From NCBI GenBank assembly GCA_038093975.1, contig JBBPTG010000287.1:1-28934 (forward strand): a DNA stretch of 28,934 nt, given 5' to 3'. Position numbers and translations under genes: made by a program. Under the pieces are notes generated by a model, which saw only the letters and a list, made by a program, of their open reading frames with translations, was not told the DNA's origin and made no database searches. This document shows positions 2,548 to 23,012 of this stretch, piece by piece; the stretch's first letter is position 1, and each line of letters opens with the position of its first letter. This DNA is from Chalciporus piperatus. Its lineage: Eukaryota > Basidiomycota > Agaricomycetes > Boletales > Boletaceae.

Positions 2548-5506
2548 CACCTTAGGCACCACTTTTTGCACAGCCACATGACCTATTAGGGGGGGTTCCT
2601 TGTAGAGAGCAAATTGACCATAAAGGGGGTCAATCTGCCTGCAGATTCCAGCCAATTCCCAATATATCCATGCATCTGCCCCCATGAAAATTCACATATC
2701 TGGATGCTTGCAGGATGTTTTCTAATGCTATTGCAGCTCTTCTGGAGGGTTTTGGAGAGGTTCAAGAGGGTTGGCAGAGGGTTGAAAGAGAGTTGGCAGA
2801 GGGTGTCTGGAGGGCCCAAAATGCTTCAGATAGCATCCTAATAGCTTATATTGTGGATGGCTTGTTGGCAACATTGCCAGAAAGCTCTCAGATGGTCTCC
2901 AGATGGTTTCCAGATGCCTTCCAGATGGTTTCCAGATGGTTTTCAAATGCTCCCCAGATGCCTTTTAGGTGTTTGTAGATGATCTTCTCTCTATAATAGA
3001 GCCCATATACTCATTAGATAATGCCCCAAATGCTGCAGATGGTCCGCTTTTTTGATTACATCAGCAGATTTGCACTGATGGATTATCCAGGGGCAATCAA
3101 AAGCATCCTCTTCTGGATCAGGCACAGATGTCAAAAAGCTTCAAAAGTGCTTACATAAGCGGATTTAAGCGGTGACATCACCAGGAACAGTACCACTACT
3201 CCCAGGGCACTGCCTTATTGGGAATCTCCTTAGATACTATGTCATCCCTGACATTTCTCTTCACATTTCTGGGTGTCCCCCTTAATGCAGGCATCTTCCC
3301 AGTGTAGATATATGTTTTATATGCCACAATGAACAGTTTCTATCACCTCTTTGATGCTCTGAAACCATCTGCAAGGCAGATCTCAGAATAGGGGATAAAA
3401 TAAAAAACATGACCGCATTTTTGACACATTTGACATATGGTCTCAAAGAATACATGCCCAGGCAGTGTTCATATATATCCACAACATATCAACAGCCCAA
3501 GAGGCCAGGATCCAAGCTGATGATGCTATGACAGATCCTCCTCCTTACCTTCTTCTGATTGTTTGAGACTGTACTGATGGTCTGGATTGTTCAGTGAGCT
3601 ATGGGACTTCACAAGACAGATATTCCCTTGAGTTCTACCATCACAGAGCCTCCCCAAAGCTCTCTGAACCCTCTCTGTCCGCTTTTTTCACTTTCTTCAT
3701 GACATATGAATAGACATTGACATAGTGAGAATATGTCAAGGGCAGCTATCCAGGACAGTAGTATATATTGCAATCTGTCCCCAGATACCTTCCTGAGGCT
3801 CTGGAGTGAATGTGGAAGGATGGGGAGTGATTCTGACATACCATGGGGTGTGGGAAAATGACTGACAACTTATGAGACTTTACACAACATATGCATTGTG
3901 GCATCCACAACACATCAGGGACTATTCTGAGTGGTAGAAAGGGTGTATCTCATGTATTCTAACAGATTGGAAGCGTAAATCTCCCTCAGGTACCAGTGGT
4001 AGCTATGTCTTGCTTTAGTGGTGCACATACAAACAATTGACAGGAACATAGCTACAACTTGTACCTGGGGGATATATACACCCACAACCTGTTAGAATAC
4101 ATAAGATACACCCTTTCTACCACTCAGAATAGTCCCTGATGTGTTGTGGATGCCACAATGCATATGTTGTGTAAAGTCTCATAAGTTGTCAGTCATTTTC
4201 CCACACCCCATGGTATGTCAGAATCACTCCCCATCCTTCCACATTCACTCCAGAGCCTCAGGAAGGTATCTGGGGACAGATTGCAATATATACTACTGTC
4301 CTGGATAGCTGCCCTTGACATATTCTCACTATGTCAATGTCTATTCATATGTCATGAAGAAAGTGAAAAAAGCGGACAGAGAGGGTTCAGAGAGCTTTGG
4401 GGAGGCTCTGTGATGGTAGAACTCAAGGGAATATCTGTCTTGTGAAGTCCCATAGCTCACTGAACAATCCAGACCATCAGTACAGTCTCAAACAATCAGA
4501 AGAAGGTAAGGAGGAGGATCTGTCATAGCATCATCAGCTTGGATCCTGGCCTCTTGGGCTGTTGATATGTTGTGGATATATATGAACACTGCCTGGGCAT
4601 GTATTCTTTGAGACCATATGTCAAATGTGTCAAAAATGCGGTCATGTTTTTTATTTTATCCCCTATTCTGAGATCTGCCTTGCAGATGGTTTCAGAGCAT
4701 CAAAGAGGTGATAGAAACTGTTCATTGTGGCATATAAAACATATATCTACACTGGGAAGATGCCTGCATTAAGGGGGACACCCAGAAATGTGAAGAGAAA
4801 TGTCAGGGATGACATAGTATCTAAGGAGATTCCCAATAAGGCAGTGCCCTGGGAGTAGTGGTACTGTTCCTGGTGATGTCACCGCTTAAATCCGCTTATG
4901 TAAGCACTTTTGAAGCTTTTTGACATCTGTGCCTGATCCAGAAGAGGATGCTTTTGATTGCCCCTGGATAATCCATCAGTGCAAATCTGCTGATGTAATC
5001 AAAAAAGCGGACCATCTGCAGCATTTGGGGCATTATCTAATGAGTATATGGGCTCTATTATAGAGAGAAGATCATCTACAAACACCTAAAAGGCATCTGG
5101 GGAGCATTTGAAAACCATCTGGAAACCATCTGGAAGGCATCTGGAAACCATCTGGAGACCATCTGAGAGCTTTCTGGCAATGTTGCCAACAAGCCATCCA
5201 CAATATAAGCTATTAGGATGCTATCTGAAGCATTTTGGGCCCTCCAGACACCCTCTGCCAACTCTCTTTCAACCCTCTGCCAACCCTCTTGAACCTCTCC
5301 AAAACCCTCCAGAAGAGCTGCAATAGCATTAGAAAACATCCTGCAAGCATCCAGATATGTGAATTTTCATGGGGGCAGATGCATGGATATATTGGGAATT
5401 GGCTGGAATCTGCAGGCAGATTGACCCCCTTTATGGTCAATTTGCTCTCTACAAGGAACCCCCCCTAATAGGTCATGTGGCTGTGCAAAAAGTGGTGCCT
5501 AAGGTG
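2548..5506. mobile_element. 2.96-kb palindromic fold-back element (giant inverted repeats)
   Basis: Every position x in the left arm pairs with 8054-x in the right arm. The arms run 2548-3960 and 4094-5506 (1,413 bp each), and I found one mismatch (3951) in the parts compared base by base. Between them, about 120-130 bp around 4027 is only partly symmetrical. The ends read CACCTTAGGCACC inward from both sides and are flanked by the 8-bp repeat TCAGGGGG, so the whole palindrome behaves as one transposed unit. Short identical frames occur in both arms (for example 3609-3839 minus and 4215-4445 plus, 76 codons), but none resembles a known protein and no transposase is present. Each arm also carries a CCAGATGG-rich short repeat (about 2889-2965 on the left) and AAAAAAGCGGAC motifs. 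Likely a non-autonomous MITE-like or Foldback element. A KDZ or hAT transposase could mobilise it, but that is inference. Confidence 0.85.
3966..4088. other. Asymmetric centre of the palindrome
   Basis: Here the two halves still share blocks such as CAGGTAC and GTAGCTATGT but differ by many substitutions and small indels, unlike the near-identical arms. Central asymmetry is known to stabilise long palindromes, so this may be the relic of a spacer or of centre-directed repair. Confidence 0.7.
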
Positions 5507-5514: not shown

Positions 5515-7033
5515 AGTGTCAATTTGATCTATAGCTTGTTGTTTAGCTGTTTCGCTCGTCACGTCGTGCCGGATGTTCGCGCTCGCTGAGTATTCTTTTA
5601 TTGATATTATTGACTGGCGAACACATAGAGGTGTTCGGAGTCTTGCAATTGTGACTCAGTGGTCTTACAGAGTCTAGCACATTCAACAAGCAATCGTAGA
5701 CCGGCAAACCCATCTCGGAAACCTCGAGGCAACCTTACTCTGGTCTTTGAAGCTAAGAGCCGATTCTGGGAATGTTCTGCCCTTTCCTTTCCGGGGGTCG
5801 GGTGGTGTTTCGGATTCTTTTAATTTCTGAGACTGTCTTCCAAGATGAACTCGGAACCGTGTTTTCCGGCCATGTTTTACCAACGCCTTTTATGGTCACG
5901 TGCCCGCCCCGTTTAGGCAGCCGGCGTGATCGCGATCTCGGTCGCGTCGTGGGCTCGCGCTCGTATGTGCGACACGCGTCCTCGTTCGTCCTCGATCCCT
6001 TCCAGCCTCTGTGCTGTCTCGGACGCAAGATGGAACGCATTCCCGATGTGACCGCCTCACCGGAGCCCACGAAAGGACGAGGGTGTTAAGCGCCCCATCT
6101 TCAAGTTCCGCGGAACGCTTGCAGCTTGAGAACTTAGGCAAACGGAAGACGGGTCGGACGCTTAGAGTGCGCGGTCGAGCGGGGAGCACGTAACAGTACT
6201 AGTAGTGCTCGCAAACCCTTGTATTCGGTACAATATTAATGGACTGGACGGAAAAAAAACATTGCAGGTTGCATCCTAGTACTATCGTGATCCTGCTGTG
6301 CAGGCTGAGTCGTGTGGACATGCATCCGAGCCGCCGGCCCAGGCGTAAAACTTGGAGTGGTTTTACGGATTTTACTGGCGGGAAACAAGCGGGCGCCAGT
6401 TTCCCTGCAATTTCTGCGATTTCCGTCGAGTTCCATCGTAAAACGGCGCGCGCAGCGCCGAAAAAATCAGCCCAATTAGGCAGGCGAGCAGGTTCTAACT
6501 CCCGTTCACTCCCGTAGGTCAACATTTCAACTCCCAGTGCTACACAGTGCCACGCAGCAGATCCACGACAGGCAGGCCAACTCCATCCTCACTGGCAAGC
6601 TCTTCGGATCATGCTCAGCTGTGCAGGATCGCTTCGGGATCACGCGTCCCATGTTGCTCAGCCGTGGGAACTTGTCTCAGTCGCGAGACAAACGATGCCA
6701 AGGTGCGCTACAGGCCTGTTGTCACGGCGGTCTCGCTCAAGTCGATGCATAACATGTAGGTCCATTCTTTCGTATCCGGGGGTGATCCATTAGGTCTGAA
6801 CTCACTGGCAGCTGTAAATGGTGTCCTGGACATCGACAAATGGTCGAGGAAACTAGTCGTCCAACAGCCACCCTGGTCACTGCTATGAACGACGCACGCC
6901 GGAAACACGAGGGCTGGCTGCACAAGGGTGAAACACAGTGGCCCCTGTTGCGTTTCTGTGCAGGACCCGCCACGCTGAGTAGCCGATCCCGGCCCTTACT
7001 GTCGATCACAACCAGCTCCCCCTTTGGTCAGCG
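5515..7033. other. Gene-poor region, possible LTR remnant at its left edge
   Basis: After the polypurine-like AGGGGGAG the sequence starts TGTCAATTTGATC, which could be an LTR start. Candidate TCAACA-type ends appear near 5680, but no matching second LTR is visible. The rest (5700-7033) holds overlapping open frames on both strands, none with a recognisable motif. Repeated GTAAAAC or GTTTTAC motifs occur at 6343-6440. I see no supportable gene. Confidence 0.4.
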
Positions 7034-7190
7034 ATCTTCATCAATGGCAGCTCCACCACTGTAGGTGTCTATGCTATCCAACTCGCCAAAGCGATCCGGC
7101 TTCGTGTGGTTGCGTCTGCTTCGGCTCACCACGAGGCGTTTGTGCATTCGTTGGGTGGAGACCTCGGCGCTCATTGGTGGCTGTCAAGTC
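7034..7190 (+). pseudogene. MDR (zinc-type alcohol/quinone dehydrogenase-like) fragment
   Basis: One plus-strand frame reads IFINGSSTTVGVYAIQLAKA and continues into a segment of the form LRVVASAS..H..FV.SLGGD. This is the nucleotide-binding core of medium-chain dehydrogenases/reductases: the G.G..G..AIQLAKA turn and helix, the second strand, then the SLGAD loop. The frame then hits TAG near 7195. No catalytic N-terminal half or C-terminal half could be found in frame nearby, so this is a relic of about 50 codons rather than a working gene. Confidence 0.6.
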
Positions 7191-7563
7191 CACGATAGCT
7201 TCCCGACCGTTGAGATTCACACCCTGACTCACATCGCCATGCGCCGAAGGCGTGTTTATCATCCAGACCTTAAGACCATCGATGGGCGTGGGTATATGCT
7301 CGTCAGAGCATCCCGTTCGTTGACACCTGCATGCGATCGGGTACGCTGTACTATATAGTCTTGATCCGGACATGATAGAATTCTGAATGAACGGGTCTGT
7401 ACTTGTTAGTTTCGGAGCCACTGAGTGGTTTTTTTTACCTGTCGCTGACCACTGTCTACTTGCCCAGGTCAACAATATATTTGGAGTGACAAATTTGGCA
7501 TCAAAAGGGCTTGAGGGGCCATTAAAGGGGGCTTACCTCTCCACCTCTGGATTCACCAACACG
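7191..7563. other. Upstream region of the first nuclease gene
   Basis: No gene seen. An antisense frame of 133 codons (7074-7475) overlaps the MDR relic and has no family motif. An AATATATTTGG element near 7474-7484, about 80 bp before the nuclease ATG, may serve as a TATA-like promoter element. Confidence 0.4.
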
Positions 7564-9285
7564 ATGGGTGTCGAGGACCTTTGGAAAGTACGTGGTAGCC
7601 GTTCATTATATATATAATATTGATTTTAATCTTCAGGCGCTCAATCCCGTTGCATCCAAGCAATCACTCCTGGAGCTTACGACAGGGTATGCGCTGCGAG
7701 AAGCGCACATCAAGCATCAGCGAAAGTACATTATCGGGGTAGACGCAAAGTAAGTTCGTCGGTGCATCTCAAGGGGTACCACAAGAGGGTGCTTACAAGG
7801 GGCGAACACAACTTCGACAGCCTCTGGATGGCCCAGTGTCAACACGCCTTCCATGCAGGGCATGCCCAATCTGGCGAGAATCCAGAGCTTCGTACACTTT
7901 TCTATAAGCTCGCTCGTCTCCACAACAATCTTGTCGACGTCATCCTTGTTTTCGATGGACCACAGCGACCGCCTCTCAAACGGGGAAAGCATGTCATCGC
8001 CCGCCCGCCGTGGCTGACAGAAAGGTTGACCAACATTGCTGACGCCTTTGGATTCCCTTCGTATACGGTCGGCCAGCCTGTTCATGTTTGATGACTGTAC
8101 GAATGACACTGCCTTTCAGGCCCCTGGTGAAGCTGAGGCAGAGCTGGCGAAACTCAACAGGAATGGCATCGTCGATGCAGTCTTAACAGAAGATAGCGAT
8201 GCGGTGGTGTTCGGGGCTGAGACGGTCATTCGAAGGTGAGAAGGGAGGAGTCTCTTGTTCCTAATCGTTATTGACTCGATCCAATAGTGACAAAGAAACT
8301 GATGATGGGGTGGTTTGCTATTCCTCCACGGATGTTCACGTACATCATGATGTTCAGCTCAGCCGTGGTGGTCTTCTCTTGATGGCACTTTTGTGTGGCG
8401 GTGACTATCATGTTTGTCGGTCGTTTTTGCACGGTTGAACTCGACTAATGGCCCTTAGCCTGGTCTCCCCGGCTGCGGTTGGCGAACCGCACTTGGTGCT
8501 GCAAAATATGGCCTTGGAGATGACCTTCTCCGTGCAGCCACTAGCAAAAATGTCGATGATCTGGCAAGCTATGCAAAGGCGTGGGCGGACGAGTTATGTT
8601 TAGTTCTCACACGCGACCACCTTCGTCATATCGGACGACGGTGCGGAGCTGTTGCAAACTCGATTCCGACTGATTTCCCATCTCCAACTGTAATTCTCAA
8701 CTATGCCTCCCCAGTCACCTCTGACATGGAGAGGGCAATTGAGCTTCTTGCCAGTCCTCGGGAGCTCGACGTGAAGCGGCTCGCATTCTTATGTGAGCTC
8801 CACTTCGGATGGAGCCGCTACCAAAACCCTCGGTCCGTGAAGGGCTTGGAGTCCTGCGGAACGCTTGGCAAACTGCAGTCCTTGGTCTTTGAGGGCGCGT
8901 TTCTCCGTGCTTTGTACGAGGTTTGTCATCCCTTAGTATCTCATGTCCGATGCCTCCTCACGATCTGCTATAGCACCTGTGTTCCTCTGAAGACGGAAAG
9001 ACGCCACAGTCCAGGAGCGATAGGCTTGGGCTGCACTCAGTCATCCGTGTCCATCATCAACACCGCCGCAACGCGCCTCCGCCAGCAACGTCTCTTTCTC
9101 AAGATCGCGTTGAGGTCAAGACCGACATTTTGGTCAAGGCTGCGAAACGCGGCATCAATGATGTCATGCAGCTCGGCGAATCTGGTCCTGCTCTGTATCT
9201 GGACACCACAACTGCTGACCCTGGCCGATGCCGTGTATGGATGCCCGCTCAGCTCACCGAGCTAGTGCTCGGAAACCGTGTTTGA
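7564..9285 (+). CDS. XPG/FEN1-family (PIN-like) structure-specific nuclease
   Basis: Predicted 465-aa protein of the basidiomycete XPG/FEN1/GEN1-like nuclease group, expected to cut flap or junction DNA with two metal ions. Exons: 7564-7587, 7637-7749, 7821-8067, 8120-8235, 8288-8411, 8459-8920, 8974-9285; every junction keeps phase and all introns are GT-AG (47-71 bp). The start MGVEDLWK matches the family's G2-containing N terminus, and ACG before the ATG gives A at -3. XPG-N region: D44 (GVDA) and D91 (VFDGP). XPG-I region: E132 and E134 (APGEAEAE), D153 and D155 (TEDSDA), D206 (GGDYH). All seven expected acidic metal ligands are therefore present. A helix-hairpin-helix-like PGLPGCG follows directly. 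The C-terminal ~250 residues are family-specific. The recombinase gene starts 211 bp downstream on the same strand. The 5' sites GTCGGC (intron 3) and GTTTGT (introns 5 and 6) are weak, so exact exon edges could shift. Confidence 0.85.
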
Positions 9286-9496
9286 GTGTAAGAAAGGGTG
9301 TTGTAGTACTACTACAGACATGGCAATATGTATACGAAGAATGGACTTGTCGAGCTCGTAGTAATCACGATGCACAGTATTAGTGCAAATGCACAAGTCG
9401 ATCGAAGCTCAGATGTGAGGCCTCGAGTGTTGGAGCATGCATCTTTGCCCATTTCAATTCCTTGTCACTGCAACTCCGAGTTGTTTTCCCGAGGAG
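9286..9496 (+). promoter_or_regulatory. Intergenic region between the two cassette-1 genes
   Basis: This 211-bp gap must hold the nuclease 3' end and the recombinase promoter. An in-frame upstream ATG exists at 9437. The ATG at 9497, in context GAGATGG, gives a more plausible basic N terminus (MANKKSTK). No clear TATA box is seen. Confidence 0.35.
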
Positions 9497-11952
9497 ATGG
9501 CCAACAAAAAGTCGACCAAGGTCACATCCACCCAGGGAAAATCAACCATCGAGACTCTCGTACAAGCACGAAATGAGACTCGAGACAAGCATCTCAAGGC
9601 AGAGAAAACGGTGAAGAAGTACAAGGCCAACATTCGGCAGGGACAGGAGTTCCTAGCACGCATGGTTGCTGAGAAGCAGCGTTCCACACATCATGAGCAG
9701 GGTTTGTCGACGAGTGACGCTGCACATGCCACCACGTCAGCGGGATCGCCAAGTACCGATATTAACGTTGAGGAGTTTAGTCGTGCGTTCGACAACATCC
9801 CGAACAAGTACTCTGCCATGGCTCTCGAGCTATTCCTGGTGGAGAAGTGTATCAATCAAGGGTGTGCGAAATCAGTGAATGGCATCTCCGCGGCTTTCTG
9901 TTATCTCTGGGACTCGTACGTTCTCCCGTTTGTCTTGCAGGAGCTAACAAAGAACTGATCTGCACTCTTATTGATCAGGCAGGGCGACAAGTACCGCGGC
10001 GAGTACAAATACGATGAGATCACCGGCGCCATCTCAGGCAATCCAGCCAGATCAGCTGTCGTCAAGGACATTACCAAGGTGATCAAGAATAAGCACAGTG
10101 CAGCCGGAAATCCACGCACGCACGCGTCGGCAATGACGATCGAGGACATGCGTCGATTGATGGACTGGTCGTATGCACAGAGCCCACCCCATGAAGTCGA
10201 ACAGCTCCTGACACTCGCTCGCGAGAACCGTCCCTTGGATGCCACACTGGTTCGCAGAGTCGGAGATCAGTTGTTCAACCGCGCTTTTGCGACGGCCGGG
10301 TTTACCTTGTGGACTAGGTTCGTGATTAATGGTTGCAGGACTGTTGTGGGGTGTCGCTGCTGACCCCGGGCCTTGCATACAGAAACTTTGAGCTCATGAA
10401 GCTCAGACATCGTGATATCGGATGGAACTGCAAAGGACGACCACCCTACAACATTCCCTACTTTCTCGTTAGCCTGAAGAATCGCAAGGGATGGCAGCGC
10501 AAGGGAGAACATGAGGGGGCATTGAGCGGTACGTCACTCGGTCATACAGAGGCTTCTTGGGTAACACACGATCATAGGAAACGAGTACGAGATCTACGCA
10601 CAACCGAAGACCCCCGAAATTTGCATGTATACCCATTTTCCAGCTTGGGTCGATTTCCTCCAAGTTGTCCTCTTGAAACGCCCGCTGCATGAAGACGAGT
10701 TCGTTTTCCCTCGCATTGGTGCAAACGGCATCGTCTACCCACAGGAGGAAATGTCGTACGATGCGGTTCAGAAGACAATCACTCACATTTGTACTGCAGC
10801 CAGCCTTTCGGTGTCATACACGACGCATTGCTTCCGTCGCGGTGGTGCCCAACATCGTTTCGTTTTTGCTCCTCTTGGCGAGAGGTGGTCACTGAGCATC
10901 ATTCGGTGGTGGGGCGGTTGGGCTGAGGGCGAGAGCGTAAGTAAATCCTTCGCATCCAACAGTATGCCGGTGTGTGACCCAGGGATGACAACAGGTCGAC
11001 ACCCTCATCCGCTACTTGTTGGACGAGCTAACACGATACGAGGTGTCGCACCGCGACGCTCTTTGTCCCATCCCACGCGAAGCCGACCGCTCTTTCAATG
11101 GCGATCACGTTCTCACATCTCCGGTCACTGCAGCGGAGACACGCCAGTTCAAGGCATCTGTGGACCGACGTTTTGAACAACTGACAGTGCATATCGACAG
11201 CACCGTCAGCACCGCCTTTCGGCGGCTGTCATGTCAACCTCCAGACCGTCAATCTCCAGCTACGTTTCCCACACCGACCAGCACCCCCAGTGCTTCGAGT
11301 TCGTGCCCGCCCACTCCCTTGCCCTCACCACCAAGCAGCCTGTGTTCACTCCCGACCACGGATGCGGCAGGGCCTCACGTCGTGCCTGAATCACCACCCG
11401 CACCGTCCAACTTGAATCCGCTTTCCTCCACGTCTCCAGTCTATCATTCCCCGACACTCTCGTCTGGAGCGGTCCAACCCGTCCAACAACCACCGGCGTC
11501 CTCCACCGCGAAAAAGGCTATGCCGATCCCCGGTGTGGCCGTACCCAACCTAAAGAAGAAAGGGAAGGATGCATGGCGCGAGGCCATTAACCAGTGGGAG
11601 ACTGCGGACCCCGGCATGGGTGGGAAGGCCCTCAAGGACTGGCCGGAAGAGTGGTACACAGGAACGATGAAGCAGTTTACCGCCTCGAAACGCCGGATGC
11701 GTCAGGTAGTGGCCGAAGAGTTCTACCGGTGAGCATGTTCTCGGTTCAGGCCTGTAATTGTTGGCACAATGTCCCTCTAGGTTCGACCGTGACGAAGACA
11801 TGTTCGCATGTGAATACCCGGAAGCTAACCGAGGCTTCAAGCCGCTGTTCGACGCCATCCAAGCAAAGCGGATGAGTCGCGGGGAGATCAGCGGCCGCAA
11901 GAGCAAGAATGGGACACCCAGCGAGCGGACCACTGCGACAACTTCGGCCTGA
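9497..11952 (+). CDS. Crypton-like tyrosine recombinase with GCR1_C-like C terminus
   Basis: Predicted 722-aa site-specific recombinase, expected to cut and rejoin DNA through a 3'-phosphotyrosine. Exons: 9497-9915, 9979-10317, 10383-10528, 10578-10936, 10995-11728, 11781-11952; all junctions are in phase, GT-AG. The N-terminal ~250 residues contain a basic, coiled-coil-like start (ETRDKHLKAEKTVKKYK). Catalytic set: R253 (TRNFELMKLRHRDI, aligned with the integrase LRxSEL box), candidate K285 or K288 (LKNRKGW), H385 and R388 (THCFRRGGA), W416 (RWWGGWAE), and nucleophile Y428 (TLIRYLLDEL). A Pro/Ser/Thr-rich linker covers about 475-590. The last ~125 residues (AWREAINQWE, then LKDWPEEWYTG, then EFYRFDRDEDMF) resemble the GCR1_C DNA-binding domain found in Cryptons. 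The absence of stops or frameshifts suggests recent activity. Confidence 0.85.
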
Positions 11953-12771
11953 TCCGATCCCACCACATTCGCGCACGCAGGACGTCGCTGCACTCACGGA
12001 TTCACGGCCCACAACGGCACACTCTCAGGCGGTCGTCCTATGACTATCCCGCCACTCTCTTCAAGTTTCCTCGGGCTCTCAGGACATCACGGACAGACTA
12101 TATCGTTATTTACCACATCGTTCACTGTCTCGTCACGCTGTATTCTACTTGACATGTAGCATCCCGTTCACGTTCTCGCCATGCATCATTCATCACTCAA
12201 GCTGTAGTTGTGTTACTAGCTCATCCTCCTCTCATTCTCTCGCTGTTCTCTTCTGTTTCCGAGTCAATGTAGCAGCAGCAGATTTCGTTCGTCCCAGGGC
12301 AGTCTCATAGCATTCCGAAGGCAACAGCGGGAAGCGCGACAGGCGTCGACGTCGACTCGGAGCCTGGTGCGGTGGTGCATTGAACACTGTAGGGAATCCG
12401 GGCGACGCCGAGGTCGCACGGGCAGGTCACGTGACCGTAAAACTCGCGCCCCAGCGGGGTAAAACGTTCGAAAGAACCAGCCTTGATTTATCGGTGAAGT
12501 CGATTTGTCATAATGGCAGCTGATGATGCTATCTTGTCAGAACCATAAGTAGCTCTGGTGCGTGGACTTGCAGAAGCCATCGAATCTTCTTGGGGAGATC
12601 CCCGAGAGAAGATGGATTGCTGCCTCTTCTTGAATCGTGAGACACAATATTACATGATATTGACGATCCTGGTATCGCATCCAGTTTTCTATATAATCCA
12701 GTACTTCCCCTCATCCACTGACACACAACCCCTTAGCTTAAACCGAGTCCCATCGATTCTCAATCCTTGCT
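11953..12771. other. Intergenic region between the recombinase and the 10-exon gene
   Basis: No gene seen. It contains a CACGTG E-box inside GGTCACGTGACCG (about 12425-12437), followed by two GTAAAAC motifs (about 12436 and 12459). A TATA box lies near the right edge. A short frame at 12558-12779 has no family features. Confidence 0.45.
12690..12696 (+). promoter_or_regulatory. TATA box of the 10-exon gene
   Basis: TATATAA sits 76 bp upstream of the proposed ATG at 12772 and is followed by a pyrimidine-rich stretch (CTTCCCCTCATCC), a common fungal transcription-start context. Confidence 0.55.
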
Positions 12772-14337
12772 ATGGTTGAGAAACTCCACAGCCCACCTGG
12801 TTCCGTCAATGATCTCAATGGCGCGAATAAGGAAAAATGGTGAATCTAAGGCTGAATCTGCGACCTCGTGCTAAACACTTCCTATCTCCCTAGGAGTCAG
12901 ACAGTCAGCGGTTTTATGCGACTGGCACCCATATCGCCGACTGTGACACCCCAATTCTACGACGCTACCAAAGTCGACAATGAAAGTGACGTCGAGACCG
13001 CCGTTGTGACTTGGATTGGATTCCCCAAGCAGGTACAGCATCGCTACAGCTTCATGATGATGTTAAGGTGATATCTCGACTAATCGCGTTTCATGTGTAA
13101 AGTGTCGGAGGCCCAACGATGAGGAGCGTTGGAAAGCGGCGGACGAATCTAGGCATGTTCAAGACGAATACCTCGAATGGTATGGGTCTGATTTTTTCTT
13201 GGTCGTTCCCCACTCGAATCAGCGCCTTATCAATAGGTCTGTGAAACGCAATGAAGACGGCAAGATCACCAAAATCGTGTTTTCAAGCGAGGGCCACCAA
13301 GTAAGATCAAGCATTCCATACTAATCACAACGATACAATTAATTGTTATTTAGTACTTCCAGACCCTCGCTAGGTACCAGCCCAAAACACTCCTAGCTCT
13401 GTACAGGAAGCTCAACGCCGACGCCCACATTATGGAAACGGATCTTTACGATGAAATAAAAACAAAAACAAAAAAAGGAACTAGCAAACGGATATACAAA
13501 AAGGAGAACGACTGGAACAACTCCACTAAGCCTGGAGCAATTGTGAATCTGTGAGCGGGATGAACTTGACTTGGTCGATTCATCCAAGAGTGCTCATTTG
13601 CTTACAGGATTCATGGTGCAAACACCTTGTCTGCTGAGATCATTCTTGCAGGTGGGGCCACAATTGTTAGAAAGCGCGGGGATGGAACGATCATCACCGA
13701 TGCGCAGGAATTGATCAACTGCTCCCACTTTGGAGAGTCAAGCAGAACCTCCGACCCGCACGTAAGGTATGTTTATTCAACCTTCGAACTCAGTGCTGAG
13801 GTCACGATATTCCTCTAGATTGGAATATGTTGCAACAATCTAGTTCGCCAGCTGCCCCGCAGACTCACCATCAACGATCCAGTCGGCTTGTACATCCACT
13901 CGTGAGCTTCCAGTGTCCCCATTGCAGTGAATTAAATGATGACAATGATTCCTCCGAAGCGTAACCTGGGCGATGGTTGAGCCTCCTGAGGGTAAGAACG
14001 ATGACCCCTCGACGTTTTGGACATGGACACGTGGATCGCTTGGTCATGTAAGCGTTGCTCCACTTTCATTATTGTTCAAACAGACGTGGGCTAAGCCGAA
14101 ATCACATACATAGTACATGCGAGCAGAATTTCAGGTTCCCGAGGATAAAGGTTACGTCGTTGGCGATCTCTTGGTCAATGGAAAACCTCTCAAATATGGC
14201 GCCCAACTTGCTGGTGTGTTTTGTATGTTATCCGAATCCATAAATGTGTTCACGGTCATTTAGATTATATCTTCGTTTCGCTCATTGCTAGAACTAGTGC
14301 ATGGGACGGCACCGCGCAGCCCCAACCCTGCACATAG
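12772..14337 (+). CDS. Uncharacterised protein, 10 exons, 347 aa
   Basis: Exons: 12772-12839, 12894-13032, 13103-13179, 13237-13300, 13354-13550, 13608-13761, 13819-13901, 13960-14047, 14114-14213, 14264-14337. All nine GT-AG introns are 50-70 bp and all ten exons join in one frame, which is strong evidence for a real, intact gene. I recall the sequence pattern from uncharacterised fungal, and possibly bacterial, proteins but can name no domain. Notable segments are TAVVTWIGFPKQ, VQDEYLEWSVKRN, GKITKIVFSSEGH, IHGANTLSAEIILAGGAT, NDPVGLYIHS and FWTWTRGSLGHYMRAEFQ. No signal peptide or membrane helix is apparent. A lysine-rich insert (KTKTKKGTSKRIYKKEN) sits at about residues 140-160. Function unknown. 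It lies between the two nuclease-recombinase cassettes, but nothing ties it to them. Confidence 0.75.
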
Positions 14338-15884
14338 ATTGCCAGGGTTCTCTATCGACCTTGTAGGCATACTCATGGCTACTGCGAATATGTTCCCTTC
14401 CCTTACAAAGTATGAAGCTTTGAAGTCACGCCGGATGGAAATATGTACCAGATTATAGCGAGTTCTATAATTATGCTGAAGTTCACGGTGAACGAGTCGC
14501 GACAACTGCAGCGTGAGGACCCCACCATTGGAAATTTGGAAGCACATGAGCGAGCTTCAACGAGACCATCACGCTAACATGCCACCTCACACGATCTCAA
14601 GACGCGTATACCCATCCTTCACAACTGTGGTTACTCCGTCAACAAGATAAGCGTATCTTGCCGATATGCTTCCTCATTGGACCGGGCCTACCACACTATC
14701 GACAATCCTATCGCATGCATTGGCTCTCGACCTCGTGTCCGCTCTATGTCCGACATCGAATTCATCGCGTCGCCCCACGGGCTACAAGACTGTCCAAGAA
14801 CACGTCACAGTCAGTTGTGATCCCGCTGCGTACGCCCTCCCATCCAGTTCTCCTTTCTCTTGCGATAACTTACCCCGTTTCCATTTTACAATGAAGTCTT
14901 GTCATGCAGCCTTCCTCAACATCCCCTTCTCCCTACACACTTCCCTGTCCTTCTTGAGCGCACTCACCCCCGACAGTGCCATGGGTTCCGGCGTCCACCC
15001 CACGCGTCCTGAGTATCGCGGCTCGCCCAACGAGAATTGATCGTGAGGAACCGGTTGGGAGCCCGAGTGCCAGCGGTGAGAGGTGCAGCGGGGGCGTCGG
15101 TGGGTGCATGGGTGGATGTTGCGAGAGAGGAGAGTGGGCAGCACAAGGATGGTGAAGCGGCGCAAGGGAGTGATTGAGGACATGGTGGCGTTATTAAGTT
15201 TATTTGATTCGAAGTACTAAGAGTACGATCGCGGAGGACGCTGGGCGTGTTTGCGACGCGAGTAGACAAATTCGATTAGCTGTGATTCAAAGCTACACTG
15301 CCAAATCTTGTAAGGGTTCCACTGAGGCTTAGCGTGAATTAGGTTCGCGAAGGGGCAAGGCAGGGTTCGGTAAGGAAATTCCGGCATATGTACTGCCATC
15401 CGTAACAAATAGATACAATTTGCCTCGGACCGCCGGTAGAGCTGTTGCGGGGTTCTGAGGTCGGACTGAGGTCAGGCTGAGCATGGCATCTGTATGGTAA
15501 ATCTATCTATGTCAAGCACTAGTGCCAATACCTTGATGACACATGCCAGCAATAAGCTCAAAATAATGTTATTATGATGTAGCTAAGTACACTCGGATCT
15601 GATATACCAATGAGAAACAGGAATTCGTCCGTGCCATGCCGTTCCGCTCACGGGCTCTCCTGCGCGCTCTCGCATTCGCGTCGCGCCATGGACCACGTAC
15701 ATCGTCGGACCAGGGTCGTTTTGCTGCGTGTTTGGGTCTGGGCTCATTTGTGGTGCCCATTGGCCTGTTTCAATGTATACAAGTTAGTAGGGCCTGAGGT
15801 GTGGGGTAGATTTGTTCACCTACTAGCTTAGCACTATGTTGTGGCGAGAAAATGAGTGCAGCGAGAGACTCAAAGTTGACGTCG

Positions 15885-15975
15885 ACAGCACAGAAGTCAC
15901 ATGACACGCGCAACTCAAAAATTTCGACAAGTCCAAAATTCTTCAAATCATTAGGAAACAAAGGCTACATTTTTT
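15885..15975 (+). repeat. Dispersed repeat, copy 2
   Basis: It carries the same ordered motifs as 1090-1150: TCACATGAC, CGCGCA, ATTTCGACAAGTCCAA, ATTAGG and AGGCTACA. It has a longer insert between the GACAAGTCCAA and ATTAGG blocks. Confidence 0.5.
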
Positions 15976-17126
15976 GGATTGCCTTCATCACTTTGCTCGA
16001 GAATTCCTCAATTGATACATGATAGTTATTATAATGTATCATCATTTGTATTACTTCGCATCTGACACCTGAAAGACAAAGGTCACCCATGTGTTTCTCC
16101 CAATGTTGGGCAAGCCTCGGCACTATGTCGTGCAAACGTAATTACCAAACCTTTGTACCACAGTGCTCTGTGGTTTGTTGGTGGCTTTGGTAACCTCAGG
16201 TGAACCTCAGACGGATAACAGATACTGTACGTACACATGTTGACGATCGACAGCCGTTCACACAAATGTGCCCCCTGTGCTCTGTAGGGACTTGTTTGGC
16301 ACTGTGTGGGGGAACTCTCAGGAAATTCCGGCATATACCCGGTGAATGCCTTGAACATTTGGGCGTGTACGTGTCTATAATCGGAGAAATTTAGAATGCT
16401 GTGCTGTAAATGCATAAATGGGATTCACCTCGGGAGACCCCGGATTCCGTCGGCTAAGCTCGGCAAGCTGGCCAACCTTCCCGAAATGGCAATGATGCGC
16501 GGGGTGATACGAGCGCGTCGAGCAATATTGCAGGACGTGCCAACGGAGAGGCGAATCAGGAAAGTTGGGGTGCGGTGCAAGTACTCGATGCGGGGGAATC
16601 CAACCACGAGCGTCGCGTGAGATGGTACGACGATACCGATCGAGTGCAGTGCTGGTCGACCCTGTGACGAGTTCGAAGGTACGCTGCTCGGTCCTCGGTG
16701 ATGTTGCCCCCGTGACTGGTGTGCACGCGAGCGGCGCAGACGGAAGGAAGTGTCGATGAGAGTGGACGACGTATTCATATTAATAGTAGGATATGCACCT
16801 CTAACACCAATAGAACATGTTGATGTTTTCCCAGCGAGTCGTCTGAATCGGCGACCGTGAAGTCACGGTGGACCTGCTGAAATGAAGGGTGGAAAGTCCA
16901 GAGAAAGCAGCGCAAACTAAATCGCGAGATTGATGTGTGCTTGAGGTGCAAAGCTGGTTCTTCTGACCTGGAAACGAATGCCAGACGAGTCTTGGGACGT
17001 GCAAAGTGAGGCAATAGAGATGACAAGCGTTTCGACGAGGCGGAAGATGATGAACGCGGGCCGCAGTCTAGATTTACAAAATTTACAAAATTTAGACTAA
17101 ATTTTCCACAGTGCGATGCGTTACTC

Positions 17127-17180
17127 ACTTTACACCCACTTTACACAGCCATTTTTTCACTTTACACCACTTTACAACCC
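17127..17180. repeat. ACTTTACAC repeats upstream of the 104-codon gene
   Basis: Four or five CACTTTACAC-like motifs in about 55 bp, preceded by a tandem TTTACAAAA at about 17072-17092. It is similar in style to the larger satellite at 1144-1557. It may lie in the 5' leader of the gene that follows. Confidence 0.5.
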
Positions 17181-17199
17181 ATGCAGCCTCTTCACACAA

Positions 17200-17661
17200 A
17201 TGGCGTCGAATTCTCTCTCCTCTAATCCTTACACTGAGCATACGATCGATCCTGTTCAAGTCCCACAAGACTGCCAGTGTGAGTTTTATTTCCCGCATGG
17301 CCTGGGCCTTCCCGCTCCCTCACAGGCCTCCTCACTGCACACCAGCGCGACGAACACAACGACTTCCCAATCGGGACACATTATGTAAGCCCACGGTCTT
17401 GTTTTTTAGCGCGCTGCCTCACCATCATCATCCTAGAGTGTCGACGTGCGGGTTGCTCACACAATTTGGGTCCCAGGCCTCAACCTCGACTCCTCTGGCC
17501 TGTCAGGTTCGTATGCTGAACGGTAGGAATTTTTTTCTCTCACAAATTCAACAGCCCACCGAACTCCAGGGAGTAATCAACTCAAGACCGTGACGCGTCC
17601 CTTCGCAGCTTCTCAGATCGACTTCTACCCATGTTGGGGCCAAGGTATGGTTGATGGATGA
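17200..17661 (+). CDS. Possible small gene of unknown function, 4 exons, 104 aa
   Basis: Exons 17200-17278, 17326-17384, 17437-17506 and 17555-17661 join in one frame through three GT-AG introns of 47-52 bp, ending in TGA at 17659. The protein starts [18 protein letters not shown] and includes [20 protein letters not shown] and [18 protein letters not shown] do not recognise a family. The C-terminal end abuts the first ubiquitin remnant. Alternatively, an intron running from the GT at 17645 to the AG at 17754 would fuse the protein in frame to the first complete ubiquitin unit (MQIFVK at 17756). That acceptor (TGTGGAG) is poor, so the stop model is preferred. Confidence 0.4.
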
Positions 17662-17671
17662 CTTGAAATCA

Positions 17672-18930
17672 AGCCCTCCGAGGAGGGTCGGACCCTCTCT
17701 GACTACAACATCCAGGAGGAGTGTGCCCTTCACCCTCCTCCATCTCTGTGGAGGCATGCAGATCTTCGTTAAGACCTTGACGGGAAAGACCATCAACCTT
17801 GATGTCGAGTCTTCCGGCACCATTGACAATGTCAAGGCCAAGATCCAGGACGAGGAGGCTATCCCTCCCGACCGGCAACACCTCATCTTTGCCGGAAAGC
17901 AGCTCGAGGACAGTCGCACTCTGTCCGACCACAACATTCAGAAGGAGTCCACCCTTCACCTTGGTATGTCCCCCTCACCACATTCGAGTCCCTTCTAATT
18001 TTGCTGCAGTTCTTTGTCTCCGTGGTGGTATGCAGATCTTCGTGAAGACCCTTACCGGCAAGACGATCACGGCGGAAGTCGAGTCTTCCGGCGCAATTGA
18101 CAACATGGAAGCAAAGATTTGGGACAAGGGCATCCCTCCCGACCAGCAACGTCTCATCTTCGCTGGGAAGCGGCTTGAAGACGGTTGCACTCTTTCCGAC
18201 TACAACATCCAGTAGGAGTCTTACTCTTCACCTCGGTATGTCGTCCTTCATCACATCATTCCTTCCTAACTTCGTTGCAGTTCTTCGTCTCCGTGGTGGC
18301 ATGCAGATCTTCGTGAAGACCCTTACCGGCAAGACGATCACATTGGAAGTCGAGTCTTCCGACACGATTGACAACGTGAAAGCAAAGATCCGGGACACGG
18401 AGGGCATCCCTCTCGACCGGCAATGTCTCGTCTTCGCTGGAAAGCGGCTTAAAGACCGTCACACTCTTTCTGACTACAACATCCAGAAGGAGTCGACACT
18501 TCACCTGGTCCTTCGTTTGCGCAGCAGTACGCAAACGGTTCGTCAAGACCCCCACCGGCAAGACCACCATGCCAGAAGTCGAGTCCTCGGACATGATGGA
18601 CGGGGGAAAATTCCTCCCGAGTTGGACCAGCGGTTTCTCGTCTTCAGTGGAAAGCAACTCGAGAACGGTCGTACCCTTTCTGATGACAGCGTTCGGGTGG
18701 AGTCCACTCTTCGTTTGGTCCCTCGTGGAGGTATGTTAATTTTTGCAACGATCCTGACTGGCGAAGTTGTCTGACACGTAAAGGCAAGGATTCGGGACAG
18801 GGGGGCATTGGGCAAGCAACCGGGGGATGGTCATACTCTCCCCCGTGGCATCAAGGCTGGGGCGAGTTCCTCCAACGCCATCTCCTGGGTGGTATGCAAA
18901 TTTTCGTCGAGACTGACAGAAAAGCCCACC
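17672..18930 (+). pseudogene. Decaying polyubiquitin array
   Basis: Head-to-tail ubiquitin units in increasing disrepair. 17672-17753: a C-terminal piece ([12 protein letters not shown]) with a 2-nt deletion before the GG. Unit 1 (17756-18029, intron 17964-18009): complete, with about ten substitutions including T14N, E16D, K33E, R42H and R72C, ending LCLRGG. Unit 2 (18030-18300, intron 18236-18280): one codon missing near residue 34, TAG (18213-18215) in place of K63, and a 1-nt insertion. Unit 3 (18301-18528): full length but ends LRLRSS instead of RGG, so ubiquitin proteases should not release it. Unit 4 (18529-18732): frameshifted at both ends of its first half. Unit 5 is cut by TGA at 18772, and scraps continue to about 18930 (MQIFVETD). 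The introns of units 1 and 2 fall in the same codon (70), so the intron was copied with the repeat. K48 is intact in unit 1. Confidence 0.9.
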
Positions 18931-19032
18931 GCTTACATTCCCGACCCAGTGGCTGTGCAGTCGATCATCCGCACGTCATACTGTTATGACCACCCCTGTT
19001 TCTACTACCAACTTCCATCAAGTTCGAACATC

Positions 19033-20913
19033 ATGGGCGTAAATGGACTGTGGCCTGTGAGTTGGGTCTTTCGTGTGTCCGATTGGACCGTGCACTGATG
19101 ACACCGTAGGGTTTGTCACGTGCGGCAGAGAGGCGCTCCCTCCTTGAATATGCTGTCAATGAAGGTTTTCGCCCTGGGTCAGCGCCTGGTAGCGTGAAAT
19201 TACTGAAGGTCGGTGTGGACGCCAGGTACCGTGACGACTGTCCCCTGCTCAGTAAATTTTCACGCTTATGGTTACTTGTGCACAGCACGTGGATGCACGC
19301 CGTGTGTCCCGTTTTCCGCTATCACCATGCTGGTGCTGGCCAGAATCCAGAGCTCTGAACGCTCTTTTATCGACTCGCAGCCATTTCGACGATCCCGGCT
19401 CATGTTGTCTTTGTGTTTGATGGGCCAGGGCGACCATGGGTGAAGCAAGGCAAACAAGTCCAAGGGAGATCACACTGGCTCACTCCCCGATTCCGTGAAC
19501 TGCTTGATGCATTCGGATTTCGATGGCATGAGGTGCGAGGTGTGATTGGCCTATTATACTGAGTTGAACTGAGTTTCGCGAAGGCTCCAGCCGAAGCTGA
19601 AGCAGAGCTTGCAGTGCTGAATCAGCATGGCCTCATTGATATGGTCCTGACAACAGACGTGGATGCCCTCGTCTTTGGTGCCGCTTGTGTTGCACGCTGG
19701 TAGGTGTTGGTCCCCAGATCTCGCTGTGCAGTGTGCACTAACAGAATTGCATTTCGGAGCCCTAAACGCCCTCGCCACTTTGATAATGTCGAGATCTACA
19801 GTGATCAACTTGTCTCCACTCGTCTAGGTCTTCCGCATGCCGAACGTGTCCTGATCGCACTTCTCGTGGGCGGCGACCATGGTGTAAGTTCCCACTCTAC
19901 ATCTGTTGTGTTCATGTCAATGAAGATGTACAGGACGGCCTGCCTGGCTGCGGAATTAACATTGCTCATTCTCTGACTCGTTACGAGCTCAGTGCAGCCT
20001 TGTCGAATGCCTTCTCTGCCTCGGAGGTGCCAGCCTTGATGCAATCTCTCGCATGTTGGCGTGATAATCTTCGACGCATCCTTTGCTCAGATTCAGATGA
20101 TCTCCTGGACCGAAGGTATCCAAAGCTTGCTGGCATGATTCCAGATATGTTTCCTAGCTACAACCACTTAAAATTTTACTTTGCTCCACTGACAAAATTA
20201 TCGGAAAACAGTGGTAGCAGCTCCGGCTCCTCCACAGTCTATCTTGTCGAGTCGAGCCAGCCGTGCCTTGCAGCACTCGCGGTCTTCTGTGAACGGCATT
20301 TTGGGCTCGAGCAGGAGGCGCTTGTCGCCAGGATGCGCTGCACGGTTTGGGAGGGTGCTGCGTTACGACATATGTGCAAGGTGTATATTTCGCAACCACA
20401 TTTTTTCTTGTATCATTCACTAACTAGCTCATGTTCCAAATAGCTTTCGAAGCAGCCTCGTGATCTCACGGTCTATCGACCCACAGTCAAATTTATTCAC
20501 CATTGGGTTCAAGTCACCTGTATGCCCGGGTCTGAGCTTGCTGTTGTCAAGCTACGGTATGATGCATCACAGTTTGCGGACATCGTCCGATTGGCTCTCT
20601 CAGCAGCAGGTCGGTCGAAGCACCAGGACTTGATGTATTTCACAGTCCCTGCTCGTGTGGCCGAGCATGTGCTTCCCGACATTGCCAAGCATCTCCGCAT
20701 GCATGCGAGGGTTGTTGAGGTGAGAATCGAGATAGGCAATTTGCAGTCCCATCCCACTGACTCATGTACGTACACGAAATGCAGATACAACTACCTGTTG
20801 TCACTCAGTCCAGAGAGGACCCGTCGGCCGTAATTGATCTAACTGGAGACTCAGATGAGGAGGGGTTGGCACAAGGGGTGGAAACAGATTCTGACATCGA
20901 GATCATTGGTTGA
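19033..20913 (+). pseudogene. XPG/FEN1-like nuclease, second copy, with internal stops
   Basis: Paralogue of the nuclease at 7564 (roughly 40% identical by eye in exon 3). Exons: 19033-19056, 19110-19225, 19286-19532, 19584-19699, 19745-19883, 19934-20380, 20444-20719, 20785-20913, giving 498 codons with stop. Exons 1, 3 and 4 have exactly the lengths of the other copy (24, 247, 116). Metal ligands remain in VGVDA, VFDGP, APAEAEAE, TTDVDA and GGDHG. The gene is broken: QNPEL is followed by TGA (19356-19358) where the first copy has Arg, a CGA-to-TGA-type change. The exon 4/5 junction also gives TGA in my model. The extra last exon carries an acidic tail with VIDLT followed by GDSDEE, a textbook SUMO-interacting motif. 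The rest of the frame is open, so decay looks recent. Confidence 0.85.
20830..20844 (+). other. SUMO-interacting motif in the nuclease C-terminal tail
   Basis: Encodes VIDLT followed by GDSDEE: a hydrophobic V-I-x-L core with an acidic/Ser flank, as in known SIMs. A second weaker one (DSDIEIIG) ends the protein. The first nuclease copy ends before this region. Confidence 0.65.
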
Positions 20914-21128
20914 TGACTTCAATACGACCATGTACAGTTTGAAGCTAGCAGTCCTTCAATACATTGGCCCTGTATCTAGCAAATATTGAATGACGGCCAG
21001 AGTCGAGACTTGGGGGTATACTGTTGACAAATAAATACACAGCTCGTCAACTGAGTAGCCTATTCCTTGGCCCGAACCACCACACTCTCTTGTGACACCC
21101 ATTGACCAGCAGACAGTCGTCACTGATC

Positions 21129-23012
21129 ATGGGGCGGACGAAAGAGTCTGCGAAGACTCCCCAGCTACCCGAGTTTCCTAAGAAGTCGTCTCGCAAGACG
21201 AAGGCTCAGACACAGTCCTCCTCCAGACCATCTGCCTCGCTTAGTGCTATTAAGCAACTGAAGGAGTCCGGAAAGGAAGCTCACCTTAGAGCAAATGAGA
21301 CACGGAAGTGCTATGCCGGCCACGTGAAACGAGGCCAGGAATGGCTCGCAGAACACTCCCGCACGGAGACAGACTCGAACGGGCAACCAGCCCCTGACGA
21401 TGCCATGGAGGATGAGAACGACTTGGATTCCTACTGGGACTCGGAATTTGCGAACACGTTCAACCGCACCCCGAACAGGCTGTCGAGCGAAGCCTTAGCA
21501 CTCTTTCTCACCTACAAAGGATTTCATCAGCATCTTAGCCAAGGGACAGTCGAGGGCATACGCGCTGCATTCAAGGACTTCTGGGACAGTGCGTGAGTTG
21601 ATACAATTGTCAGCTCTCGTTTGATTGTCTGAAATGCATCATGGCAGGGATGGTGATACTTACCGTGGGCTGTGGTGCTTCAACGACGTCAGGGATCGTT
21701 GGGAGGGAAATCTGGTCAATTCTGCGGAGGTGGCGGACCTCGTGAAATCCCTCAAACACAAGGCTACCTTTGAAGATGGTGATCGGAAGCACTCGTTGCC
21801 GATGTCAAAGGACAATATGAGTCAAATGCTGGATTGGTCACGAAAGGAATGCCCTGAGATTTACGAAGCCCTCGACGGACTGCGACGTGTGTTGTCCGGA
21901 GAGCCGCCATCGGTGCTCCACGTGCTCCTCGAACGAAGAACAATCATTACCCGGCATTTGGAACAGATCACATTTGACACGACAGCGTGGACCATGTGGA
22001 CCAGGCAAGTTTTCAAACTCGATCGACAACTGCCAGGGCGGCTGGCTGAATCTGCATTCCAGGTGCTTCGAACTGGTCAAGTTGCGAAGGCGAGACATCG
22101 AAATCTCTGATCCAAGTGCTGTTGATCGTGTGCTGATGAAGTGGCTTGCTGGCGAGGAGCTGTTGCTGAGCGATCGCACGACGATGTTCGAGATCTACCT
22201 GACAAACCGGAAAGGGTGGCAAAGAAAAGTAGACAAAGGAATAATGGAGGAAGACCTACAGGGTTCGTCACCAGACGATCAGCAGTTCCGCTGTGATTCT
22301 CATGAAAAAGCTGATGCTACCTCACTACAGGCAACCACTACAAGATCTACCCTCAGACCGACCTCCCAGCCACGGACGCATTTGGGTGGCTCCTGGTATG
22401 GATGAAGTGGCTCGAGCTGGCTCACTATGAGCGTCCGCTCGCACCTGATGATTGTGTCTTTCCGGTGATGGGGGCGAACGGAGTGATATATCCTCGTGAA
22501 CCGATCTCCCACGACGCCGTCCAGAAATGGATCAACGAGGCGGTCGCAGGTGCTGGGATACCTGGTTCATTTTCGACCCATTGTTTCCGTCGCGGGGGAG
22601 CTCAATATCGGTTCATGTTTGCTCCTGTTGGACAGCGTTGGACATTAGCGAAGGTGCGCTGGTGGGGAGGTTGGGCCGAACAGGAGCATGTGCGTATTTC
22701 CACTGGTTTTCACTTGCACGACATACGCTGAATGTCTCACCTGCACTGCGGCAGCGCACCACACTCATCCGTTATCTCCTTGACGAGCTGTATGCATACG
22801 AAAATGACTACAGTGACGCATTGGCACCAATCCCACGAGAAGCTACACAGTCCTTGGTGGGAGAGGCAGCTTTAGTGCAACCAATGTCGACCGAGGAGCT
22901 ACGAATGGTCCATGCATCGGTCACAGGTGACGTGCGAGACCTTCGAGGAGATGTAGATGCCATTGCTTCTCGAATTAAGTCTCCATTTGTGGATGTATGC
23001 GTGATATCGTAG
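21129..23012 (+). CDS. Crypton-like tyrosine recombinase, second copy, lacking the GCR1_C-like domain
   Basis: Predicted 545-aa paralogue of the 722-aa recombinase. Exons: 21129-21592, 21648-22004, 22063-22262, 22331-22689, 22755-23012. Exon 4 is 359 bp in both copies. Intron 2 (22005-22062) is a GC-AG intron with donor AG/GCAAGT; the others are GT-AG. Catalytic set: R274 (TRCFELVKLRRRDI), KGWQRK, H424 and R427 (THCFRRGGA), W455 (RWWGGWAE), and nucleophile Y467 (TLIRYLLDEL). The N terminus is basic and Ser/Lys-rich (FPKKSSRKTKAQ). After a short helical segment the frame stops at 23010-23012. The Pro-rich linker and GCR1_C-like domain of the first copy are absent and were not found in any frame up to 23130. 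So it is either truncated or a shorter natural form; catalysis may be retained but DNA targeting is doubtful. Confidence 0.75.

Follow-up and report, generated by a model that had tools for sequence, protein, structure and literature searches.

The closest described systems are two groups of mobile elements, Cryptons and Starships, and the GEN1/Yen1 nucleases. According to the accessible part of PMC3212892, Cryptons have direct repeats of 4-6 bp at both ends, CryptonS elements lack GCR1_C, the sites of tyrosine recombinases contain a 6-8 bp spacer, and the only extra protein mentioned there is a C48 peptidase of some oomycete elements. Starships, as presented in the accessible part of PMC12134995, are 15-700 kb in size and have a DUF3435 captain as the leading 5' gene. 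Here we describe contig JBBPTG010000287.1 (C287) of Chalciporus piperatus, positions 1-28,934 of the forward strand, the whole of which is called the window below. It contains two cassettes, each composed of a gene for a GEN1-like nuclease and a downstream gene for a tyrosine recombinase, and this pair very probably constitutes a two-gene mobile element. No description of a nuclease-recombinase pair of this kind was found in the literature searched, from which most subscription papers and preprints were absent.

Genes, Ends, and Copies of Element 1

Two cassettes with the same gene order and orientation had been noticed in an earlier sequence-only reading of the window, and both are present in the exon-intron models, predicted on the basis of splice signals and similarity. 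The first comprises the nuclease gene (7564-9285, + strand; seven exons of lengths 24/113/247/116/124/462/312, 465 amino acids) and the recombinase gene (9497-11952, + strand; six exons of lengths 419/339/146/359/734/172, 722 amino acids). The intergenic gaps had been given as 211 and 215 bp, of which the first is exact, but the second is 214 bp. The equal lengths of nuclease exons 1, 3, and 4 and of recombinase exon 4 in the two cassettes are real, and nuclease exon 5 (124) is equal in length as well. The proteins of the two cassettes show 39% (nuclease) and 37% (recombinase) identity and, to judge from the sequences, the resemblance is not due to chance.

An empty site, sought as a means of finding the element ends, is present on C390 and fixes those of element 1. 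C390 matches window positions 5634-5858 (100%) and 12474-15296 (99.4%), both matches overlapping in GAACC; since it joins both flanks at a single GAACC, the region 5854-12478 (+ strand) is an insertion of 6,625 bp, the right core repeat included, and C390 is its empty site, allelic or paralogous. The core direct repeats GAACC occupy positions 5854-5858 and 12474-12478. Their AACC part is common to the five left junctions seen, all of which read AACC-GTG, and to the three right junctions seen, all of which terminate with it. Moreover, positions 5888-5912 (+ strand) and 12418-12442 (− strand) form an imperfect inverted match of 25 columns, with a score attained in 2 of 2000 shuffles; the two arms are a possible recombinase-binding site.

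Further copies of element 1, 98.7-99.8% identical to it, are located on C26 (two), C3, and C238. One of those on C26 (186441-193064) is complete, with 15 mismatches over 6,624 bp, both genes open, and one amino-acid change, and the other lies on the minus strand and is cut off at window position 10434; the C3 copy is interrupted by the contig end, and that on C238 is a 1.3-kb fragment. Eight flanks of 1 kb each, taken from the insertions on C287, C26 (two), C3, and C43, have no match in common. The C26 target is situated ca. 13 bp inside a repeat whose copies on C54, C5, C111, and C22 are uninterrupted across the joint, an empty-site argument that is weaker because left of the joint there are only 13 bp of the repeat. 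A search with the element ends alone gave no copies beyond those already known.

A more diverged copy, with the nuclease and the recombinase both open, is located on C43. Its coding part is 66-68% identical to that of element 1 at the DNA level, the proteins being 74% (nuclease) and 71% (recombinase) identical, and its first 168 bp and last 87 bp are 97% and 100% identical, respectively, to the element 1 ends (window 5854-6021 and 12392-12478). Such near-identical ends around diverged genes may reflect exchanged ends or a strict constraint. The nonsynonymous (dN) and synonymous (dS) divergences of the two nuclease genes are 0.176 and 1.89 (dN/dS 0.093), by which estimate the nuclease is under purifying selection; for the recombinase dN is 0.212 and the synonymous sites are saturated. 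An empty site for the C43 copy was looked for and none was found. The C43 element also comprises two abutting kinase pieces from C9 (C43:87550-88314; 97-98% identical, one inverted), which their similarity marks as a recent capture at the DNA level. In element 1, a possible host fragment, weakly dehydrogenase-like, lies at 6983-7195 (+ strand; ADH_zinc_N, E 0.011, 16.1 of 31.8 bits), and window positions 7032-7162 show 83% identity to C121 and 73% to C62.

The Two Proteins

The element 1 nuclease matches XPG_I (1.3e-18) and XPG_N (4.5e-8), and solved GEN1 chains come first among its structure-sequence matches (5.3e-37). In the model of its homologue P0132 (predicted local distance difference test, pLDDT, 90) the closest solved fold is that of GEN1, ahead of FEN1, XPG, or EXO1, with GEN1 in the six best PDB matches (the best at 3.5e-25, over 462-470 columns). 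Residues D44, D91, E132, E134, D153, D155, and D207 of P0132, which we take to be metal ligands, reach at least 90% conservation across 48 sequences.

The recombinase has 247 homologues at E ≤ 0.001, of which 120 were listed, one of them lacking a species. It reaches no Pfam cut-off; the best match, DUF3435, has 15.3 of 25.8 bits, and with this score below the cut-off Starship membership was rejected. In the homologue P0024, residues R246, K281, H376, R379, and Y419, which presumably play the catalytic roles of the R, K, H-x-x-R, and Y positions of a tyrosine recombinase, are each conserved at 90% or more across 66 homologues. All 22 structures that Foldseek matched to the P0024 model (pLDDT 81) at E ≤ 0.001 are Cre or derived from it; the best E is 2.2e-7, and the template modelling scores are modest, 0.41-0.49 by target. 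On the evidence of this model the protein is a tyrosine recombinase with a Cre-like fold. The sequence-only reading had called it Crypton-like, a name that the ends and the chemistry fit, but no Crypton family model was reached, and the clade formed by the C292 and Suillus recombinases shows no linked nuclease. Neither GCR1_C nor NDC10_II gave a Pfam match in the recombinase. A relation to NDC10-type Cryptons was rejected: when profiles were compared with three NDC10-type proteins, the probability was 0.5%.

Linkage and Descent of the Two Genes

Ten recombinase loci of the C. piperatus genome keep the N-terminal part (element 1, C26 (two), C3, C43, element 2, C133, C152, C292, and C366), start-less fragments on C300, C284, C440, C249, and C35 being excluded from the count. 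At eight of the ten, representing five lineages, the same strand carries a nuclease immediately 5' of the recombinase. On C133 both genes are open over the modelled part, while on C152 the nuclease is a remnant devoid of exons 2-5, seen by DNA matches and one match of E 0.009. Nucleases with no such recombinase neighbour are found on C452 (open), on C35, where a recombinase fragment lies on the opposite strand, and, as a fragment, on C238. The XPG loci on C14, C32, C20, C15, and C16, with no recombinase neighbour, were taken for host genes. The check proposed earlier, that of the gene 5' of the recombinase, favours the pair at eight of the ten loci of this genome and was possible for only a few homologues elsewhere.

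In other fungi, at least six recombinase-nuclease pairs occur on one contig, those of Gyrodon lividus, Pleurotus pulmonarius, Mycena latifolia, M. rosella, M. alexandri, and Lyophyllum atratum. A shared contig was recognised by the same species and equal contig size, with distance and strand lacking for five of the six; the P. pulmonarius genes bear the consecutive tags EYR38_010709 and 010710. The comparison covered 119 of the 120 recombinases and 84 of the 118 nucleases listed (unnamed and non-Agaricomycete entries omitted), and the numbers of linked pairs are lower bounds, because each of the three protein searches scored only ca. 8,000 candidates. The number expected by chance among 102 same-species combinations in 27 species is 1.95 same-contig pairs at a genome size of 35 Mb (P 0.012 from the count and 0.0016 with contigs weighted by size) and 1.14 at 60 Mb (P 0.0008 and 0.0001, respectively). 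The two proteins are, moreover, joined in five merged gene models (3 among 165 scanned proteins and 2 among 120), and the nuclease comes first in P0239 (Agrocybe), P0240 (Suillus plorans), P0232 (Ephemerocybe, with a partial recombinase), and P0040 (Arthromyces).

The congruence of the trees of the two proteins, another check proposed for the pair, holds broadly at the level of distances. The protein distance matrices of 14 pairs are correlated with r = 0.754 (P 5e-5, the floor of the test), a value to which host phylogeny contributes, and those of six Boletales-type pairs, four of them from this genome, with r = 0.936 (P 0.003). The cassette 2 nuclease entered the matrices with a mis-set exon 4/5 join and X at two stops. 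In both proteins element 1 and C43 are nearer to Gyrodon than to cassette 2 or C133, and the position of Arthromyces differs between the nuclease and recombinase trees. The exact ends, the empty site, the dispersed copies, the linkage, the correlated distances, and the purifying selection together uphold the earlier proposal of the nuclease as second component of a mobile element, in which it is a stably kept gene. Since relatives in other mushrooms keep the pair together, the element is suggested to use both genes.

The nuclease tree was built without a partial Arthromyces sequence, three NDC10-type models, and proteins shorter than 280 amino acids, and comprises 163 of 164 sequences, one having been lost at trimming. 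All 13 linked nucleases fall inside a clade of 77 (node support 0.508), which contains 0 of 77 GEN1_C-bearing proteins, and 12 of the 13 inside a clade of 72 (support 0.943). The idea that element nucleases explain the abundance of PIN-like nucleases gains from this common clade free of GEN1_C, but the support of its node is low; a link between the two is plausible on this tree. In two further models, P0282 and P0283, an NDC10_II domain and an XPG_I domain are joined, and P0284 aligns with both, its XPG part not being confirmed. The nuclease may have, as such fusions suggest, a second, unrelated type of partner among NDC10_II proteins.

Element 2

Cassette 2 is a separate, decayed element. Its nuclease gene (19033-20914, + strand; exon lengths 24/116/247/116/124/447/276/130) has an in-frame TGA stop at 19356-19358; exon 5 begins at 19760, and C133 and C452 are open at the same exon 4/5 join. 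The recombinase gene (21129-22975, + strand; exon lengths 464/357/200/359/258) lacks its 3' end, the frame continuing to 23012 in the flank. The DNA absent from C390 (15297-22975, + strand) includes element 2 and another repeat, and its joints have no direct repeat; C112 and C12, weaker relatives (72-90%), likewise join its flanks. Because C390 joins 15296 to 22976, positions 22976-23012 are flanking and the C-terminal part of the recombinase is gone, so of the extent assigned to this cassette earlier (19033-23012) the start and the gene order stand, but not the end. The true ends of element 2 are lost: no direct repeat is present, a different repeat makes up the left part, and on the right the break falls within the recombinase gene.

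The left edge of the DNA holding element 2 is occupied by a 1.08-kb dispersed repeat (15293-16370) with about ten copies. Decayed ubiquitin repeats of element 2 (17687-18715, + strand; PF00240, 2.9e-33) lie directly upstream of the nuclease, as do ubiquitin repeats in two related elements (C452:6830-7219 and C152:51164-51736).

Possible Role of the Nuclease

It is probable that the nuclease acts in mobility, and we also favour, with a little more reserve, its doing so by cutting a branched intermediate; junction resolution as its main task is proposed tentatively. The recombinase would excise the element as a circle, with AACC inside the circle joint, predicted to read ...TTCGAAAG-AACC-GTGTTTTCC... 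from the right end to the left end, and this joint would recombine into a chromosomal AACC. Because the circle and the target share just 4-5 bp, the exchange of the second strand may stall, giving rise to a Holliday junction or a flap that the element's own nuclease would resolve or trim.

Several observations weigh against this explanation. The recombinase appears, by its sequence, to keep every residue needed to complete the exchange alone, and in the accessible part of PMC3212892 no such nuclease is described for Cryptons, whose short repeats are similar. No same-contig pair was seen in 21 of the 27 species with both proteins listed, and for most of the recombinase homologues listed linkage was not seen, the majority not being examinable. 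In the merged model P0033 (Steccherinum) the order is reversed, with the nuclease last. On C366 there is no nuclease match, at a locus that itself could not be read. On C292 the recombinase is open, with no nuclease in ca. 1.8 kb upstream; a P0232 match there corresponds to the recombinase part of that merged model, and a match of E 0.034 lies far downstream. The C292 recombinase groups with a large clade of Suillus recombinases, none of which shares a contig with a listed nuclease, and this clade likely either lost the nuclease or has a recombinase independent of it. Finally, the elements hold host pieces, namely the C43 kinase, the ubiquitin repeats, and the weak dehydrogenase-like piece.

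These pieces, together with the existence of a recombinase clade apparently without a nuclease, speak for the nuclease being cargo: an ancestral element would have picked up a duplicated GEN1 gene in a single event, and its descendants would have kept it with no role in mobility. However, captured pieces vary between elements, whereas the nuclease has been retained between deeply diverged elements, the gene order being mostly the same, with dN/dS of 0.09 and a conserved active site, and we regard cargo, the main rival reading, as unlikely. A role of the nuclease in some other step, be it repair or replication of the circle or the donor gap, or homing-like cutting of empty alleles, seems quite unlikely. 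Forks and flaps are substrates of GEN1 and XPG relatives, and some merged models combine an XPG domain with NDC10-type proteins of a different kind, but no sign of sequence-specific cutting was seen, and the modelled fold is that of the structure-specific GEN1. The spread of both cassettes as host genes by segmental duplication, to which the repeated flanks common to this contig, C390, C12, and C112 could point, has a negligible probability, being refuted for cassette 1 by its exact ends and empty site, while the cassettes differ by more than 60% in protein and element 1 is nearer to Gyrodon lividus than to cassette 2 in both proteins.

The two-gene reading with a junction-cutting nuclease can be extended. 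Integration might be a two-enzyme process, in which the recombinase would exchange the first strand at a 4-bp core and the element's resolvase would complete the second exchange by cutting, and a duplicate of GEN1 arising in an ancestral Agaricomycete might have founded a mobile gene family that makes up much of the PIN domain-like expansion and joined NDC10-type partners as well; taken as a whole, this extension is doubtful. If true, the two-enzyme route would let the element do without the longer match in the spacer that is usual for tyrosine recombinases. A junction-cutting enzyme would be added to a transposon type thought to require the recombinase alone, and an origin and a task would be offered for many mushroom nucleases annotated only as PIN domain-like. 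The exact ends, the empty site, and the predicted circle joint make the idea open to a test in laboratory yeast.

Other Features of the Window

A near-perfect palindrome at 2548-5506, with 1,461-bp arms that are 99% complementary and spaced by 37 bp, looks like a fold-back element; full-size palindromes lie also on C264, C81, and C16, and single arms on C19 and C202. Four 70-bp units in tandem, alike at 70-83%, occupy positions 1284-1564. A KDZ transposase domain at 26235-26990 (− strand, E 1e-60) represents a second transposon type on the contig. Rfam gave no match at the gathering threshold.

Comparison with Known Systems

Element 1 resembles Starships, as far as these are presented in the accessible part of the source, in having a tyrosine recombinase and short direct repeats, but it is 6.6 kb in size, and its recombinase gene is the last one, downstream of the nuclease. 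The nuclease is similar to the GEN1/Yen1 Holliday-junction resolvases in sequence, in the fold modelled for P0132, in the XPG_N and XPG_I domains, and in the conserved acids; unlike them, it sits beside a recombinase in a mobile element, and the linked nucleases group apart from proteins matching the GEN1_C model. With Cryptons (CryptonF and CryptonS; Kojima and Jurka 2011, the accessible part) the element shares the tyrosine recombinase, the short end repeats (4-5 bp here), and the lack of long terminal repeats, and it differs from them in carrying an XPG/GEN1 nuclease as the second gene.

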